Made by a program: the position numbers and the translations under genes
Shown: positions 22,802-46,783 of the stretch, one piece after another
Position numbering within the stretch: position 1 is the stretch's first letter
Layout of the letters: every line of letters begins with the position of its first letter
The notes under the pieces: generated by a model
The model's input: only the letters and a program-made list of their open reading frames with translations
Database searches by the model: none
Told to the model about the DNA's origin: nothing
Virus record (IMG/VR): IMGVR_UViG_3300050011_000335
Span: 1 to 51,291 of that record
DNA: 51,291 nt
Direction: 5' to 3' (one strand)
From: a virus

Positions 22802-23476
22802 TTAATATTTCTCGGGGTTGAAATCTACCTTATTGCCTTTTGAAAGATTCTCAGATGCGGTCAATATCTGTAAGTTCCATGGGACATGAAGACCCCTTAC
22901 TAGTTTACCCTGCAATGGAATTATATGGTCTACTTGATGCTTAATTCCAGTTTCTTTAGTTAATCTTGCAGCTTTTACATAAATATCTTGAATTTCAAGT
23001 AGTTGAGTCTCATTAAGCCATTTAGGGGTGGCGTTTATTTTACAAGCCAATCTTTTTGCCGTTAAAGCATTGACCTTACCCGAATTGGCCTTTTTATATT
23101 CTTTTTGACGAGCATGGATCTCATCTTTATGTTTTGCCAAATAGTTAAGGTTGTAGGTCGCAGCCTCTTCTTTGTGTTCGGCTCTATAAGAAACTATTTT
23201 CTCTTTATTTTCAGCTCTCCATTTGGCATCAGATATTCTTTTTTCTTCTTCGTGTTCCGATTTCCATTTAGAAAAGTATACTGCCCGCTCTTCTTTACGT
23301 CCAGCATTGTAAAGAACCGCTTTGGCCAAAATAATTTCTTTGTTTTTATTGTAATATAGAGAATTGTAAATTTTTATACATTCTTTGCATCTAGATTCCA
23401 ACCCGTCTTTATGACCCCTATTTTTAGTAAATTCTACTGATTCTTTATCCTTTTTGCACCCAAAACACTGTTTCAT
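22802..23476 (-). CDS. HNH homing endonuclease, second copy
   Basis: The N-terminal ribbon (MKQCFGCKKDKESVEF, later RCKECIKIY) carries two CxxC pairs. A Lys/Glu-rich spacer with fewer repeats than the 11179-12051 copy follows (SEHEEEKRISDAKWRAENKE, AEHKEEAATY). The nuclease core QVDHIIPLQGK (His184) and HVPWNLQILTASENLSKGNK matches the first copy closely. The gene lies alone between two virion genes and is probably a mobile insertion. There is no visible canonical ribosome binding site. Confidence 0.85.
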   Translation of the reverse strand: MKQCFGCKKDKESVEFTKNRGHKDGLESRCKECIKIYNSLYYNKNKEIILAKAVLYNAGRKEERAVYFSKWKSEHEEEKRISDAKWRAENKEKIVSYRAEHKEEAATYNLNYLAKHKDEIHARQKEYKKANSGKVNALTAKRLACKINATPKWLNETQLLEIQDIYVKAARLTKETGIKHQVDHIIPLQGKLVRGLHVPWNLQILTASENLSKGNKVDFNPEKY

Positions 23477-34402: not shown

Positions 34403-37372
34403 TTAGCTAGCCGACTGTTGAACGGAACTAAGTGCCAATTCAATAGCCGCAAAATAAATACTAGTCGTGAGTTTAGCTTCCACATTTATAAAAACAGATG
34501 GAGCTGACAATTGAACGCTTGCGTCTTTAAACCCCAAAGGTGCATCACTGGAAGTAGTTACGATCTTCGTTCTTTTGTAGAAATCGAATCGTTGCTGTAG
34601 TGAACTCAAAATTGAAGCTGCCGATAAATCTGCAACAGATTTTCCAACAATTACGGTTTTAAGATACTGCCCCAAGTCTAAGGTAAGAATATCAGATAGA
34701 TAAACTGCCTGAATTGAGTTATAGACAAAGTTAGTATCCAAACCATAAGTCGTCTGATCCGAAACCCAAGGAATTCCGTTCGTATCCTGCGTAAATACGA
34801 GTAACCCAGCAGTCAACGCATCAGAAACATTATCTGGATCACCAGAATCATAACCAACTGGATCCTGAAATGAGACCACGTTCGCAAGATGGTTACAGAT
34901 GGACTTATAGAAACCACCTGATTGCATACCAGCTGCTACAGCCGCTCCATACCAAGGCAAGAACAACGTGTTAACTCCAGCAGAATTAACCTGAGTGACC
35001 TGCTGACAGGTAAGACCACAATGATAAGTAGCAAGACTCTGAGCTTGCGCTTTGCACTTAATATAGGTATCGTTGTAAGATAGAATAGCCATGCGATTAC
35101 GTTTCAATGTAGGAGTCGAATACTGAATACAATGAGATTTCAGCAATTCGTTAATCGCATCAATCGTGTAGGTAGAACTGGGATCCGTGTTACCAGCGAG
35201 AATGTCTTTCGTAGCATTTTGAGAAAACAGAGGAACGATAATATTAATCTGAATCCCAGCTAACTGAGCAACTACGTTAACGATATCAGCAGCCGAAGTA
35301 GCACCACGAGCGCCGCCTGACAAGTAAATCAGAATGCTTGGCTCAGGAAGCCCCGCTACAGCGGTAGGAATAAAATTCAATGCTGTAGAGGTGTTCATCA
35401 CCTGTTGGAATATGTAAGCTGAATCCTTAACTCGTCCCGGCTCATCGGTAGTAGAAGAAACGATTCCGATAGCCGTTACTTGATCAAGGGCTGAAGGAGG
35501 TAACTGAATAGCTGAAGGGCTAGCCGATGCAGAGTACCCAGGTTGAGAATTAATAAATGCGGCCAATTGGCTAATCGTGGTATATTGGGTTAGAGGAATT
35601 GAAAGATTTGTTCCACTTCCACCAACAACAGTAGTAGTCAAGGTCAAAACCCCAGCAACTAGACCGATGGTCATAGTCCCAGAAGTACCTACATACCCTA
35701 CAGACATAGCTATATTTGGGAATACATTTAAGACTTCGTTAACACCGGTAGTTGTATTAATAATTTGGACTTCAACACCAGGTTCTTGGCTAGAAACAGT
35801 CAGTCCCGTTATTAGGCCCAATGCGGCCAAATCTCCAGGAGTGGAATCAATCAATTCGAAAGATTTGCCCCAGCCACTACTATACATACGTCCAGAAACG
35901 GCAGAGAAAGCAATTGTTGCATCTCCCGTGCCAGTAATTTTAGTCAAAGTACCAGAACTGGAGGGATCCCCGCTTCCAGTAGCTTGCAAAGTAGTCCCAG
36001 CTGCGATGGTCTCCAAAACTGTGAAAGTCTGACCATTATTGGTATACGTAGCACCAGCCGTAGCATTAGCAGAAGTTACTGTAAACGTATATTGTGTCTC
36101 TGTGAGAATTACATTGTTTGAAAGTCCAACAGATGCTACAATTCCAACTGGAAGAACAACATTAAGTTCTGCAACCAATTCGGCAATAGTATTGAGGAGA
36201 GCCCCACCACCAGCATCATTTCTATGAATTGATCCACTATAAGTTCCTGGAGGAAAGCCGGTAATAGAAGTCCCAGGAGCAACACCCAAGTCACCAGTAA
36301 GAACTGTATTCCCAGTATTAGTGACCGCCAACGCGCCTAATACTGCAAAACTACTGGCAGCGCCTAACAAGGGTGCAGATTGAGCAGCAATATTGGTTGC
36401 AACGCCGATAGTAACTGCTCCAGTAAGGGCAATCATGCTACCATTAACAGTTCCACCACCGATTGAAATACTCGCATTTGCAAGAATATTACCATTGAAA
36501 GTATTAGCAGCACCAAGAGTTGCTGAGGTGCCGACCTGCCAATAAATATTTTCTGCAAGAGCGCCACCAGCAAGGGTGATAGTCGCACCGGCCCCAGTAG
36601 TAAGAGAGCTTCCAACTTGAACATAGAAAACGTCAGTAGGGCTACCACTAAAATTGAGATTGGCAGCTGCTGAAAGTGTAGCAGTCGAAGAAGCGGTATA
36701 GGTTCCTGCAGTAAACGTTTGGGAATCAAGAACGCCGCCCACAATGGTGGTTCCAGCTGGCATTCCCAAAATAGTGGCATACTCAGCATGAGCCGCAGCT
36801 TGCGCTGGAATAGAACCAACACTACTACTGAGAGTAACGAGATCGACAGCTCCACCGTTCAAACGAATAGAGAAAGTGGCACCATTCAAAACATCGCCAA
36901 ATGCTGGAACGGTATCACCAGTAACCTGGGGGGTAATTTCTGCATCAAGGGAAGTGATGGTATAGCTAAACAGATTTCCGCCAACACCCCAGTTAAGAGC
37001 GTCAAAAGTTCCATAATTGCCAACATTGGCAGCAACCAAGGCCGAAGCTTGAGTTCCTTTATTTGTCTTAACAATATAAATAGAAGAAGCGGTGCCTTTG
37101 ATATCTGGATCATTGCTAGGAGCCGACAATGCAGCAAAAGCGTCAACAATTGGACCAGAAGTATAAATAGCTCTAACCTGAGTCAAAGCCGTTGGTCCAA
37201 AAAAGTTATTAGCAAGTTTAAGGATGCTATAGTCTGGACCACCAGCTGCTTCACCCATGATAAGAACAACGCCGGAACTAGCCAAACCAGATGCGTTAGA
37301 AATTACCGTAGTGTTAACGTATGCGCCGGGAATGTTTGTATTAAGCCAGGGTGTGACAATTCTTTGCGACAT
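34403..37372 (-). CDS. tail sheath protein with a large inserted beta-solenoid domain, 989 aa
   Basis: The N-terminus (PWLNTNIPGAYVNTTVISNA) and C-terminal third (AYIFQQVMNTSTALNFIPTA, IWASN-free; SSLQQRFDFYKRTKIVTT) follow the layout of contractile sheath subunits, whose C-terminal domain begins with 'G-x-x-N-x-I' type segments and ends in a long helix and strand. It is roughly 400 residues longer than most. Residues about 186-388 look like a circularly permuted DUF3494 (ice-binding-type) domain: the half with TLTTGAG-like strands and IYWQVGTSATLGAANTFNGN comes first, the half with LGAASSFAVLGALAVTNTG and ITGFPPGTYSG second. A second insert (about 425-492, YTNNGQTFTV) recurs in the giant fibre. 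TAGGAGATATTAAA precedes the ATG. Confidence 0.85.
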   Translation of the reverse strand: MSQRIVTPWLNTNIPGAYVNTTVISNASGLASSGVVLIMGEAAGGPDYSILKLANNFFGPTALTQVRAIYTSGPIVDAFAALSAPSNDPDIKGTASSIYIVKTNKGTQASALVAANVGNYGTFDALNWGVGGNLFSYTITSLDAEITPQVTGDTVPAFGDVLNGATFSIRLNGGAVDLVTLSSSVGSIPAQAAAHAEYATILGMPAGTTIVGGVLDSQTFTAGTYTASSTATLSAAANLNFSGSPTDVFYVQVGSSLTTGAGATITLAGGALAENIYWQVGTSATLGAANTFNGNILANASISIGGGTVNGSMIALTGAVTIGVATNIAAQSAPLLGAASSFAVLGALAVTNTGNTVLTGDLGVAPGTSITGFPPGTYSGSIHRNDAGGGALLNTIAELVAELNVVLPVGIVASVGLSNNVILTETQYTFTVTSANATAGATYTNNGQTFTVLETIAAGTTLQATGSGDPSSSGTLTKITGTGDATIAFSAVSGRMYSSGWGKSFELIDSTPGDLAALGLITGLTVSSQEPGVEVQIINTTTGVNEVLNVFPNIAMSVGYVGTSGTMTIGLVAGVLTLTTTVVGGSGTNLSIPLTQYTTISQLAAFINSQPGYSASASPSAIQLPPSALDQVTAIGIVSSTTDEPGRVKDSAYIFQQVMNTSTALNFIPTAVAGLPEPSILIYLSGGARGATSAADIVNVVAQLAGIQINIIVPLFSQNATKDILAGNTDPSSTYTIDAINELLKSHCIQYSTPTLKRNRMAILSYNDTYIKCKAQAQSLATYHCGLTCQQVTQVNSAGVNTLFLPWYGAAVAAGMQSGGFYKSICNHLANVVSFQDPVGYDSGDPDNVSDALTAGLLVFTQDTNGIPWVSDQTTYGLDTNFVYNSIQAVYLSDILTLDLGQYLKTVIVGKSVADLSAASILSSLQQRFDFYKRTKIVTTSSDAPLGFKDASVQLSAPSVFINVEAKLTTSIYFAAIELALSSVQQSAS

Positions 37373-41132: not shown

Positions 41133-41345
41133 TCAACCTTTTGGCGGCTTCACAGGAACCCCAGAAGGCCCCATTACACGCCCCTCTTTCATATTAATGA
41201 ATCTAACTACCCCATTGTTGTCGGTGACCTTCATTTGGCCCTTACCATTAATACCGTGCTCTGGGATTGGATCCTTAGCGACGTGGGTAGTAGTATGGCT
41301 AGTTGGAAGCTTCGAAGCCGAGGGTAGTCCTGCTACCCCACCGCT
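41133..41345 (-). CDS. -1 frame extension of the mCpol-like gene (70 codons, no own start)
   Basis: The frame is open from within the end of 41333-43408 to TGA at 41135-41133 and reads as genuine protein (KLPTSHTTTHVAKDPIPEHG, MKVTDNNGVVRFINMKEG, VMGPSGVPVKPPKG). It has no ATG, GTG or TTG before an internal ATG at about 41229, which would discard the conserved-looking first half. The frame relation and the slippery heptamer at 41351-41345 indicate translation by -1 frameshifting, giving a 758-residue product. An independent 32-residue protein from the internal ATG (AAGGGCCAA upstream) is the alternative. Confidence 0.65.
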   Translation of the reverse strand, partial: SGGVAGLPSASKLPTSHTTTHVAKDPIPEHGINGKGQMKVTDNNGVVRFINMKEGRVMGPSGVPVKPPKG

Positions 41346-41351
41346 TTTGGG
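41322..41351 (-). promoter_or_regulatory. -1 ribosomal frameshift signal (C CCA AAA plus hairpin)
   Basis: In the zero frame the codons are GAC CCA AAA GCG GTG GGG TAG. C-CCA-AAA (41351-41345) fits X-XXY-YYZ. After the 6-base spacer GCGGTG, GGGTAG (41338-41333) pairs with CTACCC (41327-41322) around CAGGA, placing a hairpin over the zero-frame stop. Confidence 0.7.
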
Positions 41352-43408
41352 TCCTGAGAACCCTCTTGAGGTGCTGCCTGTGGAGGTCCTGCTGCTGGGC
41401 TCTCTTGTGGAGCAGCTTGTGGGGGTTGTTCCTGACCAGCTGCCATATTAGGCTCTAGACCAAGAAGCTTACAAAGCTCAATCATAGATTTTAACATTTG
41501 GATACAAGAATTATATAAAGGCTGATTTTGTTCTTTGGTTGCTTCTAGGGATGCCTTGTTGGCCTTGAATCCAGCAAGAGTCTGGCCTACCATATCCAAT
41601 ACTTGTTGTTTTTTCTGTTCGTTTGCATGGTCGTCTAAGCCACCCTGGAGAATGGAGGACATATCAGGTTCATCTTGTCCCAATTCTCCATTTTGTCCTG
41701 GAATCTGAGCATCTTGTCCCAATTCTCCATTTTGTCCCGATTCTTGTCCCGATTCCTCACTCTTAGGACAATTGGGACAATTACAATCATGCGTCTGTTC
41801 TTGAAAGTCTTTATCGGAATCAGAAATATCGTTTTTCTGAGCATCTCCAAAGTTATCAGTAACAGCGGTTCCTTCTTCCATCTGATCGCCTTGAGGCATT
41901 TCCGTATTGTCAATTTTCTTGGCAGCTTGAGCTGGAGTCTGAGCGCCCGTGCCAGGTTCCTGATCCAACAAGTCCAAAACTTCTTCAGCAGTCTCATGAC
42001 CCTGTAAATTTGGATCACCTTGACCAGTTTGTCCTGGCTCATTTTCAACAGCATCAGAATACATTTCTTGACACTGTGGACAATCATCCGGATGTTGAGC
42101 GCCTTGGTCTTCTACTGCCAAATTGCTTTGATCTTTTTGATTAGCAACGCAATCAGGGCAGTTACAGATGTGATCTTGTGGCGCTTCAGGATTGGCCTGA
42201 GCTTCAGTAATATTTTCAGTTTGACAATAAGGGCAATCGTCGATACCACCAGTATTTTGTTGTGAGGCATCGTATTCCTTGCAAGCTGGGCAGTCATGCA
42301 TTCCAGCCGTTCCATCTGCGTTTTCTTCTGCATCTAAATCTTGGCAATAAGCACAATCATCTGTACGATTATCTTCGTTATCGGCGCAATAAGGACACGG
42401 ATCATTAGTGTTTGGTTCAGTATGTGGAGCGTGCTTACCTTCTTCAGATTTATGTAACTCACAAACGTATTGTTCAGATTTTCCCATTTTTGTCCCCACT
42501 TCGATAGAAGACAGATCGTCATGGAGTTTTTTTGCTTTTTCTCCTGCTTCTTTTTGTGCTTTGGCATGCCCTTCATCATTTACGAAGAATTGGTCGGTAC
42601 GATCTGAGGGATGCTTAAGATGCGTTTCGTAAGCACTATGCATGGCATCTGCTTTATGGTGTCTATTAGAAATCTCTACATTTCCTTTTTTATTACTCCA
42701 TCCAGCATTTTGAGGGTCAAATGCCTGTGCCTGACTTCTATGTTTTGAGGCTATATGTCCATGGACATAAGAGGGAACTTTCAGCATTTCTTCATGGCTA
42801 ATAGTGGGCTTAGTTTTACCACCCGTAACTCTAGTTAGGGTATCAACTGGGCGTTTGGTTACAACTTTACCCTCTTTAGCGTTTGTAGATAAAGCTTTTG
42901 TGTCACTTTTATGTAGATCGCACAACATATTTTCCGCCTTTGCTAAGTAGGCTTCACTCAGCTTATATTCATCTGGAGTGGCACGTTTTTCACGAACCCT
43001 CCTTTTAGCTTTTTGGATATCTTTTTTTAGTTTATTGTCAAAATAAACAATACGGTCTTTTCCCCTGAGCTTAGCTACTAGAAGTGAGGTACCAGCTTCG
43101 GAAAGAGATTTTCCAACACCAACAGAAATGGTATAGCCAAAAGATTTTTCAACACTCTTTCTAAGGGCTTCTAGTTTTTTTAAAGCATCTTGTGGAACTG
43201 CTGCAGTAAACTCATCTCCACCGCCAGACACTTTAACTCCGCTTACATCCTTACACCAATGCAAAATAAAATCTTGTGCCGCATCAATTCTATTGGAAAT
43301 CTTATGAAGCTCATCGACATCATTAGCAAGCACGGCTCTGCCAACTTTTTTCCCGACCCCATCCCCATCTGCAGCTATGTAAAACATCCCAGGCTTAATT
43401 TTTTCCAT
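41333..43408 (-). CDS. mCpol/GGDEF-like domain fused to a zinc-knuckle linker protein, 691 aa
   Basis: AAGGAGAAGCA precedes ATG 43408. Residues about 8-124 match a minimal nucleotide-polymerase (mCpol, Palm/GGDEF-type) domain: FYIAADGDGVGKKVGRAVL with metal-binding Asp14/Asp16, then VKVSGGGDEFTAAVP (62-67), GYTISVGVGKSLSEAG and AKLRGKDRIVYFD. In this fold two-metal catalysis joins nucleotides into cyclic or linear oligomers. A basic helical region (about 125-330) follows. Seven CxxC knuckles (about 338-547: CPYC, CAYC, CPAC, CPYC, CPDC, CPQC, CPNC) are joined by acidic linkers, and repeats such as GQNGELGQD and a helical end follow. Short 'KAE/KSE' words recur. The product is probably packaged or assembly-associated, given its neighbours. 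The end carries a -1 frameshift signal. Confidence 0.75.
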   Translation of the reverse strand: MEKIKPGMFYIAADGDGVGKKVGRAVLANDVDELHKISNRIDAAQDFILHWCKDVSGVKVSGGGDEFTAAVPQDALKKLEALRKSVEKSFGYTISVGVGKSLSEAGTSLLVAKLRGKDRIVYFDNKLKKDIQKAKRRVREKRATPDEYKLSEAYLAKAENMLCDLHKSDTKALSTNAKEGKVVTKRPVDTLTRVTGGKTKPTISHEEMLKVPSYVHGHIASKHRSQAQAFDPQNAGWSNKKGNVEISNRHHKADAMHSAYETHLKHPSDRTDQFFVNDEGHAKAQKEAGEKAKKLHDDLSSIEVGTKMGKSEQYVCELHKSEEGKHAPHTEPNTNDPCPYCADNEDNRTDDCAYCQDLDAEENADGTAGMHDCPACKEYDASQQNTGGIDDCPYCQTENITEAQANPEAPQDHICNCPDCVANQKDQSNLAVEDQGAQHPDDCPQCQEMYSDAVENEPGQTGQGDPNLQGHETAEEVLDLLDQEPGTGAQTPAQAAKKIDNTEMPQGDQMEEGTAVTDNFGDAQKNDISDSDKDFQEQTHDCNCPNCPKSEESGQESGQNGELGQDAQIPGQNGELGQDEPDMSSILQGGLDDHANEQKKQQVLDMVGQTLAGFKANKASLEATKEQNQPLYNSCIQMLKSMIELCKLLGLEPNMAAGQEQPPQAAPQESPAAGPPQAAPQEGSQDPKAVG

Positions 43409-44790: not shown

Positions 44791-45752
44791 TAAGTTTGTC
44801 CGTCTGGAATCCCATCGGCGGTAAAAGAGATCATGTCAACGCTAATAGCTCCTGGAGAGGGCTTAATAGTGTCCAAAGGCTCCTGGACAGCTCTTTTGGG
44901 AGTTGTGGAGGCAGATTGATTCTTAGGATCGCCTCTAGCTTGACTGTGGTAGACGTACTCCCTCTGAATTACAGCGTAATAAGCTAATCTCTCAGGAGTC
45001 CTGACACCATTCTCCGTAATATTGGTCATTCGGGTCTCTTTCGGCAATTCTACAATATAGTGATATGCTTTATAGAGATAACGTATTGAATATACTCGAC
45101 CTTTTCCAGTCTCGGGATCAATTCCTGGACTTTTACCACCTGGCAACCAATTAATGTTGCCATCAGAAGTTATGCAAAAATCAAGCCCTTGTGTATAAGA
45201 AATATTCCTACTATCAATAATAGGTATCTCTAACTCAATTATGGGGAACATAGGCACATTAGTACCAACTTCGTAGGTCATTTTTTGGTAATTTGACACC
45301 TTGACATTGGCTTTGGGATCGGACACATAAATGCGATCACCGGGAGCCATATAGATACGGTTACCGTCATCAACAGGAGCAGTGTTTACGGATCCAGCGA
45401 CAGACTTGGTCTTATTGTAGAAACGAGGGAGAATAAGTCTGCTAACGGATGGATCTACAATTCCCCCGTCAGTTCTTTCCTTCTTGGTGGTATTGTCAGT
45501 CTCACATCCCGTAAAAGTGCCAGCATATACATAAAGCATTCCATTTGAAGTCAGGACATCCAACCCATCACGACGATAATCGCCACGATCTTTTAATCCA
45601 ATAGGAGAAGGCATAGCTTTCCAGTGGCAGTAGTCAATTCCTTGGGAAGTAACAAAATCGTCGTCAAAAAGCAAATTAAAGCTGTGTTGTGTCAGAGGAT
45701 TCCATTGATTAATATCTTGAATCTGCACTCCATGTGGGGGCCTATCACTCAT
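44790..45752 (-). CDS. conserved large-phage virion protein, 320 aa
   Basis: CCTAGGAGATTTAT precedes ATG 45752. The product is beta-rich and has phrases I associate with a conserved late protein of large phages: GIDYCHWKAMPSPIGLKDRG, YRRDGLDVLTSNGMLYVYAG, GLDFCITSDGNINWLPGG, and RVYSIRYLYKAYHYIVELP. It probably takes part in the neck or head-tail interface. An endonuclease gene is inserted directly before it and overlaps its start by eight bases. Confidence 0.65.
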   Translation of the reverse strand: MSDRPPHGVQIQDINQWNPLTQHSFNLLFDDDFVTSQGIDYCHWKAMPSPIGLKDRGDYRRDGLDVLTSNGMLYVYAGTFTGCETDNTTKKERTDGGIVDPSVSRLILPRFYNKTKSVAGSVNTAPVDDGNRIYMAPGDRIYVSDPKANVKVSNYQKMTYEVGTNVPMFPIIELEIPIIDSRNISYTQGLDFCITSDGNINWLPGGKSPGIDPETGKGRVYSIRYLYKAYHYIVELPKETRMTNITENGVRTPERLAYYAVIQREYVYHSQARGDPKNQSASTTPKRAVQEPLDTIKPSPGAISVDMISFTADGIPDGQT

Positions 45753-46431
45753 ATAAATCTCCTAGGAAGTCTAAGCAACGTTTAACACAGTCTTCCTTAT
45801 CAATATTCCAATCCTGTTCTTTAATATGAAGAATTCGAATTTTTTTTGATAAAAAATAATCATCTTTAATTTGATGATAATTTGCGATATCCTCTTCTGG
45901 CCAATATTTTCTATTCCTACTTTTTCTTAATCCCTTAAAAGAATGCCAATATTCGCCATCAAATTCTATCCCCTTATTTCCAATTCTAATATCTAAATCA
46001 AAGCCTTTTATGTGAGGCTTTCCTTCTATTTTAACTTTCACATCCCTAAATTTTTTAGCATCGGGGTAAGCAAGTTTAATTAAAGACAACAGTTCTTTTT
46101 CTGGTAAAGAAGTTCCTTTAGGAGATTTCATATGTTTACAGACTATATCCATTACCCTCATTCTGTTAGCAGCTTGATAAGCGGAATTATTACTTAATTC
46201 AAACTCTCTACGACTTTTATATAGATATGCTATTTCTTGAACTTTTTCAAGAGACCAATAAGTAAAGACGGTCTCCATATGAGAACAAATTTGATCCATT
46301 ATTCCCCTTCTTTGTGCGGCAGCCTGAGCATTCCTACTCCCTATTTGAAATTCCAAACGAGTCCTATATCTTAAAGCTTCTAGGGCCACTTCTTCATTGG
46401 TCCATTTATGTGGCTTGGCCCTTTTACTCAT
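45745..46431 (-). CDS. Vsr-type (EDxHD-like) homing endonuclease, 228 aa
   Basis: ATG 46431 has GGAGAAAACTA upstream; a longer in-frame start has none. Two N-terminal repeats of about 40 residues (KWTNEEVALEALRYRTRLEF with GIMDQICSHM, and YWSLEKVQEIAYLYKSRREF with VMDIVCKHM) are DNA-reading repeats seen in phage endonucleases. The nuclease domain has DLDIRIGNKGIEFDGEYWHS, then YHQIKDDYFLSKKIRILHIK, the Asp/Glu-Asp-x-x-x-His arrangement of very-short-patch-repair-fold homing enzymes. It cuts DNA to promote its own spread. It sits snugly between two late genes with overlaps on both sides. Confidence 0.8.
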   Translation of the reverse strand: MSKRAKPHKWTNEEVALEALRYRTRLEFQIGSRNAQAAAQRRGIMDQICSHMETVFTYWSLEKVQEIAYLYKSRREFELSNNSAYQAANRMRVMDIVCKHMKSPKGTSLPEKELLSLIKLAYPDAKKFRDVKVKIEGKPHIKGFDLDIRIGNKGIEFDGEYWHSFKGLRKSRNRKYWPEEDIANYHQIKDDYFLSKKIRILHIKEQDWNIDKEDCVKRCLDFLGDLYE

Positions 46432-46783
46432 TAGTTTTCTCCAAACACATCTTGGATATTTCACACAACTTGCTATCCGTACTAGCATGTAGAGTAGACA
46501 GACCTTTGACTACTTCGTTTATACTCATTTTTCTTTTCAAATCTTCTAGTCGTCTTTCTAATCTAAAACCGCTAATGCTATTATTGGCATTAACCCTGAT
46601 ATCGGCAATACAACCAACTCCGCTTCTAATCATTCGCTCGATCTGATCGACAAAATGGTCAATCCTGGGATCTAAGGGGTCATAGCTAACCAGAATCTCT
46701 TTAGCCCCAACTATTTGGTGCTCCAATGACATGTTTGGATCAAATTCATATTCGTGATCGGTACAAATAATTTTAACGCACAT
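46424..46783 (-). CDS. hypothetical late protein, 119 aa
   Basis: The product (CVKIICTDHEYEFDPNMSLE, AKEILVSYDPLDPRIDHFVD, then basic RLERRLEDLKRK) mixes short strands with helices and has three Cys. No family recognised. Its start is preceded by GAGGATCTTATAAT rather than a Shine-Dalgarno sequence. Its end overlaps the endonuclease start by eight bases. Confidence 0.55.
   Translation of the reverse strand: MCVKIICTDHEYEFDPNMSLEHQIVGAKEILVSYDPLDPRIDHFVDQIERMIRSGVGCIADIRVNANNSISGFRLERRLEDLKRKMSINEVVKGLSTLHASTDSKLCEISKMCLEKTNE

Follow-up and report, generated by a model that had tools for sequence, protein, structure and literature searches.

Proteins of the DUF3494 family (Pfam PF11999), which include the type 1 ice-binding proteins of the EfcIBP type (6eio), SfIBP_1 (6bg8), ColAFP (3wp9) and FfIBP (4nu2), are built as a β-solenoid in which a first half, a capping region and a second half follow one another along the chain. 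In viral contigs from the Arctic surface microlayer, genes with PF11999 have been described as cryoprotective auxiliary metabolic genes (PMC11515562). The sheaths of contractile phage tails, such as those of Staphylococcus phage 812, Myxococcus phage Mx1 and the others covered by PMC9230969, consist of N- and C-terminal core parts with accessory domains between them. The accessory domains described are mostly Ig-like β-sandwiches, for which weak carbohydrate binding has been proposed in phage virion proteins, and a solenoid of the DUF3494 family is not mentioned among them (PMC9230969).

The window analysed here is a 51,291-nucleotide stretch of viral DNA (IMG/VR record IMGVR_UViG_3300050011_000335). 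Its tail sheath shares the layout of the described sheaths, but carries between the core parts a domain of the same β-solenoid family as the ice-binding proteins, which aligns with their structures at 30-36% identity over 135-139 columns (1.3-1.8 Å) and keeps their capping helix and GFPPG..IHxND motifs. Unlike in the known proteins, the two halves are swapped, the domain is inserted in a loop of a virion protein, and ice binding is only a candidate activity. Like the Ig-like domains, this module is accessory, spread over unrelated proteins and missing from close relatives (compare PMC9230969), but it has another fold and occurs in sheaths only in permuted form. The viral genes of PMC11515562 are likewise virus-encoded, but were read as protecting the host; since the domain here belongs to a virion structural protein, a PF11999 match in a phage does not necessarily mean an auxiliary metabolic gene. 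Searches of the open-access literature returned nothing on DUF3494 together with phages, nor on tail sheaths together with ice binding, in agreement with the original prediction that no sheath with this domain had been described. The IMG sample numbers, looked up for the habitat of the contigs, appear in none of the papers searched.

A divergent tail sheath protein

The gene carrying the insert (34403..37372, minus strand) is a single open frame of 989 amino acids. Since no curated sheath family in Pfam or PHROG matched this very divergent sequence, its first reading as a phage tail sheath needed an independent test. When the whole protein was modelled with AF2 (mean pLDDT 79, pTM 0.57) and the model compared with known structures using Foldseek, the top matches were the phi812 sheath chains (E 1.6e-17), followed by sheaths from further phages and tail-like machines (3hxl, 3lml, Mu, XM1 and T4), and the model has the sheath core fold; DUF3494 proteins were returned for the inserted part, for example 3wp9 (1.3 Å over 135 columns). 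The only homologue in an annotated phage is the Mx1 tail sheath (33% identity), which differs from the window sheath in having another insert with no PF11999 match. Both lines of evidence uphold the reading as a sheath and, on the basis of the modelled fold, we take the protein to be the contractile tail sheath of a large uncultured phage. A search of BFVD with the full model ranked A0A6J7WV38 far ahead of all other structural matches (E 4.3e-44, 16% identity); this 941-residue sheath of an uncultured phage may carry a solenoid insert too.

Alignment to the uninserted sheaths L004, L006, L007 and L010, together with the AF2 strands, places a β-hairpin of the host protein (FSIRLNGG..DLVTL, residues 166-180; 36833..36877, minus strand) immediately before the insert. 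Immediately after it comes a host helix (AELVAELN, residues 395-406; 36155..36190, minus strand), recognised by the same kind of alignment and as a helix in the model. The C-terminal core (residues 500-989; 34406..35875, minus strand) is conserved across all sheath homologues.

Between the host helix and this core lies a second mobile module, the YTNNGQTF module (residues ~424-495), which has low pLDDT and is missing from most sheath homologues. It spans about 75 amino acids (YTFTVTSANATAGATYTNNGQTF..TGTGDATITFSAF; window 35888-36103, minus strand), is not in Pfam, and recurs in fibre-like and sheath proteins (L011, L014-L017, L021 and L224), with copies in other phage proteins being 56-72% identical. 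In L011 it occupies the sheath site adjoining the host helix and in L224 another sheath site, while in L014 and L015 a normal-order DUF3494 domain is nested inside it. Elsewhere in the window, the structural gene block includes a 691-residue protein (41333-43408, minus strand) with an N-terminal mCpol, or minimal CRISPR polymerase, domain (PF18182, E 9e-16) and a GGDEF-like motif, SGGGDEFTA; it may act in anti-defence or be a nucleotide polymerase put to a new use. HNH/homing endonuclease-like and endonuclease VII-like genes also lie among the structural genes (45745-46488 and 22802-23476, minus strand).

Swapped halves in a predicted closed solenoid

The insert occupies residues 186-388 of the sheath (36209..36817, minus strand), as originally proposed, and PF11999 (Ice_binding) is the sole Pfam family found in the protein (E 5.5e-33; family cut-off 28.7 bits). 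The best stretch, residues 189-323, matches positions 65-203 of the profile, which is 208 positions long. A second stretch (36343-36044) matches profile positions 1-74 and, because it lies downstream of the first, the order is second half and then first half. When the halves were re-joined in normal order, the match became continuous over profile positions 1-203, and the score hardly changed (126.3 bits as encoded, 124.8 bits re-joined). Phmmer against the PDB identified 25 chains, every one of them a DUF3494 protein, and in the alignments shown the first part of the query pairs with the second half of the chain, and the reverse. Finally, profiles of the separate halves detected a single second half followed by a single first half in the window sheath and in all sheaths of its clade (clade A, see below). 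Both halves of the family profile are thus covered, but in an order other than the first half, cap and second half of normal members, so that we class the insert as a permuted variant of DUF3494 rather than a standard member. A tandem pair of DUF3494 copies misread as a permutation was ruled out, as each half is present once.

Along the chain, the domain opens with the capping helix (residues 188-202; 36767..36811, minus strand), which is helical in the AF2 model and aligns with the AQxDAxxAYxxL motif of normal-order copies. This is followed by the ancestral second half (residues ~204-330; 36383..36763, minus strand), a short AAQSAP linker that fuses the C and N ends of the ancestral chain (residues ~329-334; 36371..36388, minus strand) and resembles the AQxxPLL-like motif of most permuted copies, and the ancestral first half with its GFPPG and IHxND motifs (residues 335-388; 36209..36370, minus strand). 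All the motifs quoted in the original prediction are present, and the cut falls in the capping region, where it had been placed.

The predicted structure agrees with this arrangement. Residues 183-408, modelled in isolation with 26 permuted copies in the alignment, gave one closed solenoid with pLDDT values of 93-98 through most of both halves and a pTM of 0.85, implying that the mutual placement of the two halves is confident. At E<=0.001, Foldseek returned 16 PDB matches for this model, all of them DUF3494 structures, and the model is a three-sided β-solenoid with a helix alongside. Most of these matches comprise a single contiguous stretch of ~135 columns at 1.2-1.8 Å, with a TM-score of about 0.55. 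Since Foldseek aligns sequentially, and therefore shows one half of a permuted domain at a time, partial coverage of this kind is what a circular permutant is expected to yield. Pfam, phmmer and the structural comparison thus concur with the swapped halves first read from the sequence, and the checks proposed to refute that reading left it standing.

Recurrence, exchange and cut points

Two lineages, with about 33% core identity between them, make up the sheath homologues in viral contigs, and the permuted module was found in both: in 15 sheaths of clade A, to which the window belongs (14 non-redundant sheaths in the core tree, and L078), and in 12 of clade B. The remaining 38 clade-A sheaths in the tree are without the module, including L004 and L007, which have 74% and 71% core identity to the window. 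At these empty sites, the flanking hairpin and helix are separated by only a few residues. Since the flanks are almost directly joined there, the ends of the insert must be close in space, as had been anticipated for the new ends. In clade B, many sheaths also lack the module (for example L219, with 75% core identity to L087), and where present it lies one loop earlier than in clade A, preceding the LSFxLRINGG strand. No normal-order DUF3494 domain was found in a sheath, against 27 permuted sheaths.

These 27 distinct sheaths also bear on whether the order might be an artefact of misassembly, or of a chance join of two DUF3494 fragments within a metagenome contig. The window is indeed a single metagenomic viral contig. 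However, the open frame is continuous across the insert, AF2 closes the fold, and the same order is found, strongly conserved, at two sites on separate contigs, a recurrence on which we reject an artefact as extremely improbable. As sheaths of two distant lineages share it, we regard the domain as a real, conserved and exchangeable virion module.

The module's identity also points to exchange between sheath backbones, since it far exceeds that of the cores. In clade A, L165 and L005 share 90% identity in the domain and 58% in the core, and across clades L012 and L087 share 74% and 30%; the excess amounts to 30-40 points in many between-clade pairs, and in clade A it goes as high as 32 points. 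Furthermore, the presence of the module changes at least 5 times on a quick tree of clade-A cores. Ratios of dN/dS among six domains were about 0.1, ranging over 0.06-0.21 where computable, figures that are rough since synonymous sites are near saturation, and saturated in most pairs. Taken together, the excess identity, the changes in presence and the low dN/dS indicate that the module is under purifying selection and maintained, and that it has apparently moved between sheath backbones.

Outside sheaths, normal-order copies were found in other virion-type proteins of related phages, including long fibre-like ones, while permuted copies were found in two proteins of 530-542 amino acids and in two fibre-like proteins. 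Order is associated with the type of host protein, being permuted in 24/24 sheath rows versus 4/41 others, although the rows are not independent. The 162-kb contig of L012 (G011) encodes four DUF3494 domains: a permuted one in the sheath, two in normal order in a 2,621-residue protein and one in normal order in a 543-residue protein. In the two proteins of 530-542 amino acids (L082 4419-6008 and L083 4335-5960), the permuted domain splits a YAVWFNV..GIEV module, and a CHB_HEX_C_1 domain comes after it in L083.

Turning to cells, we searched 788 genomes from the two phyla that include a Pyrinomonadaceae MAG and a planctomycete MAG with a profile of the permuted junction. DUF3494 was present in 31 of these genomes, and no full-length match to the permuted junction was found in any of the 788. 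All 18 cellular proteins in which both halves could be resolved, drawn from the two phyla and five scan hits, have the normal order, and on this sample the permuted form appears to be phage-specific so far. A tblastn search of 50,697 records of isolated phages with a normal-order phage DUF3494 sequence yielded no match.

Every cut falls where the two halves of the normal domain are connected, but its exact position varies. Clade-A copies run from the capping helix to a point past the HxN motif; clade-B copies start before HxNDA and end after GFPPG, the last part of the first half having been moved to the front rather than duplicated; and in L066 and L013 the helix is at the C end. One explanation is that clade A, clade B and the fibre proteins each received a domain cut at its own place within the capping region, through two or more independent permutations. 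The differing insertion loops and cut points of clade A, clade B and L066/L013 are in keeping with this, as are the maximum-likelihood domain tree, which requires 6 order changes, and the copy in L013, which has a different linker and groups with cellular copies. Against this, the AU test does not reject (p 0.22) a tree in which all permuted copies except L013 form one clade, and an AQxxPLL-like linker is common to most permuted copies (sheaths of both clades, the proteins of 530-542 amino acids, and L066). We give repeated permutation an even chance: these sequences are compatible both with one permutation followed by later shifts and with several. The tandem H1-H2-H1-H2 arrangement of the two half-domains was seen only in L086 (2955-7865), where two normal-order domains are separated by an 11-residue linker; excision of a fragment from such a tandem is one plausible route to a permuted copy.

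Candidate functions and wider meaning

The permuted domain probably works much like an adhesin, as an exchangeable module displayed outside the tail that attaches to a repetitive surface. The sheath core is interrupted, between its N- and C-terminal segments, by an accessory domain, one loop of which holds a complete DUF3494 solenoid. A short linker fuses the ancestral ends and, as the new ends lie at the capping region, the solenoid can be mounted by its cap between the host hairpin and the host helix; the permutation would make the cap the point of attachment, holding the solenoid by its end and leaving a flat face free. By analogy with general sheath architecture, in which extra domains lie away from the tube and have been suggested to serve adhesion or stabilisation (PMC9230969), the domain is expected to project outward. 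Published sheath structures suggest one exterior copy per subunit, which would give many ordered copies per tail. The candidate ligand would be a repetitive surface such as the host envelope, an extracellular polysaccharide or ice, a role similar to that proposed for the Ig-like domains found on sheaths.

The narrower proposal that the ligand is ice itself, with a solenoid-coated tail holding virions on ice or ice-covered hosts, or preserving infectivity through freeze-thaw, draws on the fact that the closest solved relatives (6eio, 6bg8, 3wp9 and FfIBP) are ice-binding proteins; a role in ice adhesion has been proposed for SfIBP_1, according to a title cited in PMC7966756. Membership in DUF3494 does not by itself establish this activity, however, and since neither a repetitive sequence nor a consensus motif marks the ice-binding sites of the family (PMC7966756), sequence cannot decide the matter; on balance we consider ice binding rather unlikely.

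Alternatively, the solenoid might pack on neighbouring sheath subunits and cement the tail with no external ligand, a stabilising role of the kind proposed for extra sheath domains in PMC9230969. Close relatives such as L004 and L007 do without the module, however, and homologous domains are present in unrelated phage proteins. In addition, subunit-specific contacts would be hard to reconcile with a module that is swapped between backbones of only about 30-60% core identity. We therefore hold a purely stabilising role to be unlikely. A bolder form of the adhesin-like reading is that a clade of phages decorates its whole tail with ice-binding solenoids for transmission or survival on frozen surfaces, having re-cut DUF3494, possibly repeatedly, into an end-mounted loop module; this we put forward as a speculation, and a doubtful one.

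What this system offers is a natural and repeated circular permutation tied to the type of host protein: 27/27 sheath copies are permuted, while copies elsewhere are normal in nearly all other phage proteins and in all the cellular ones checked. Because the permutation follows the host protein, nature here provides a setting for testing how the position of the chain ends relates to the geometry of mounting. The range of accessory folds known from tail sheaths is extended beyond Ig-like domains and, as PF11999 in a viral genome can be part of the virion, caution is called for before counting it as a cryoprotective auxiliary gene. Should the module prove to bind ice, it would give virions a new means of interacting with frozen habitats.
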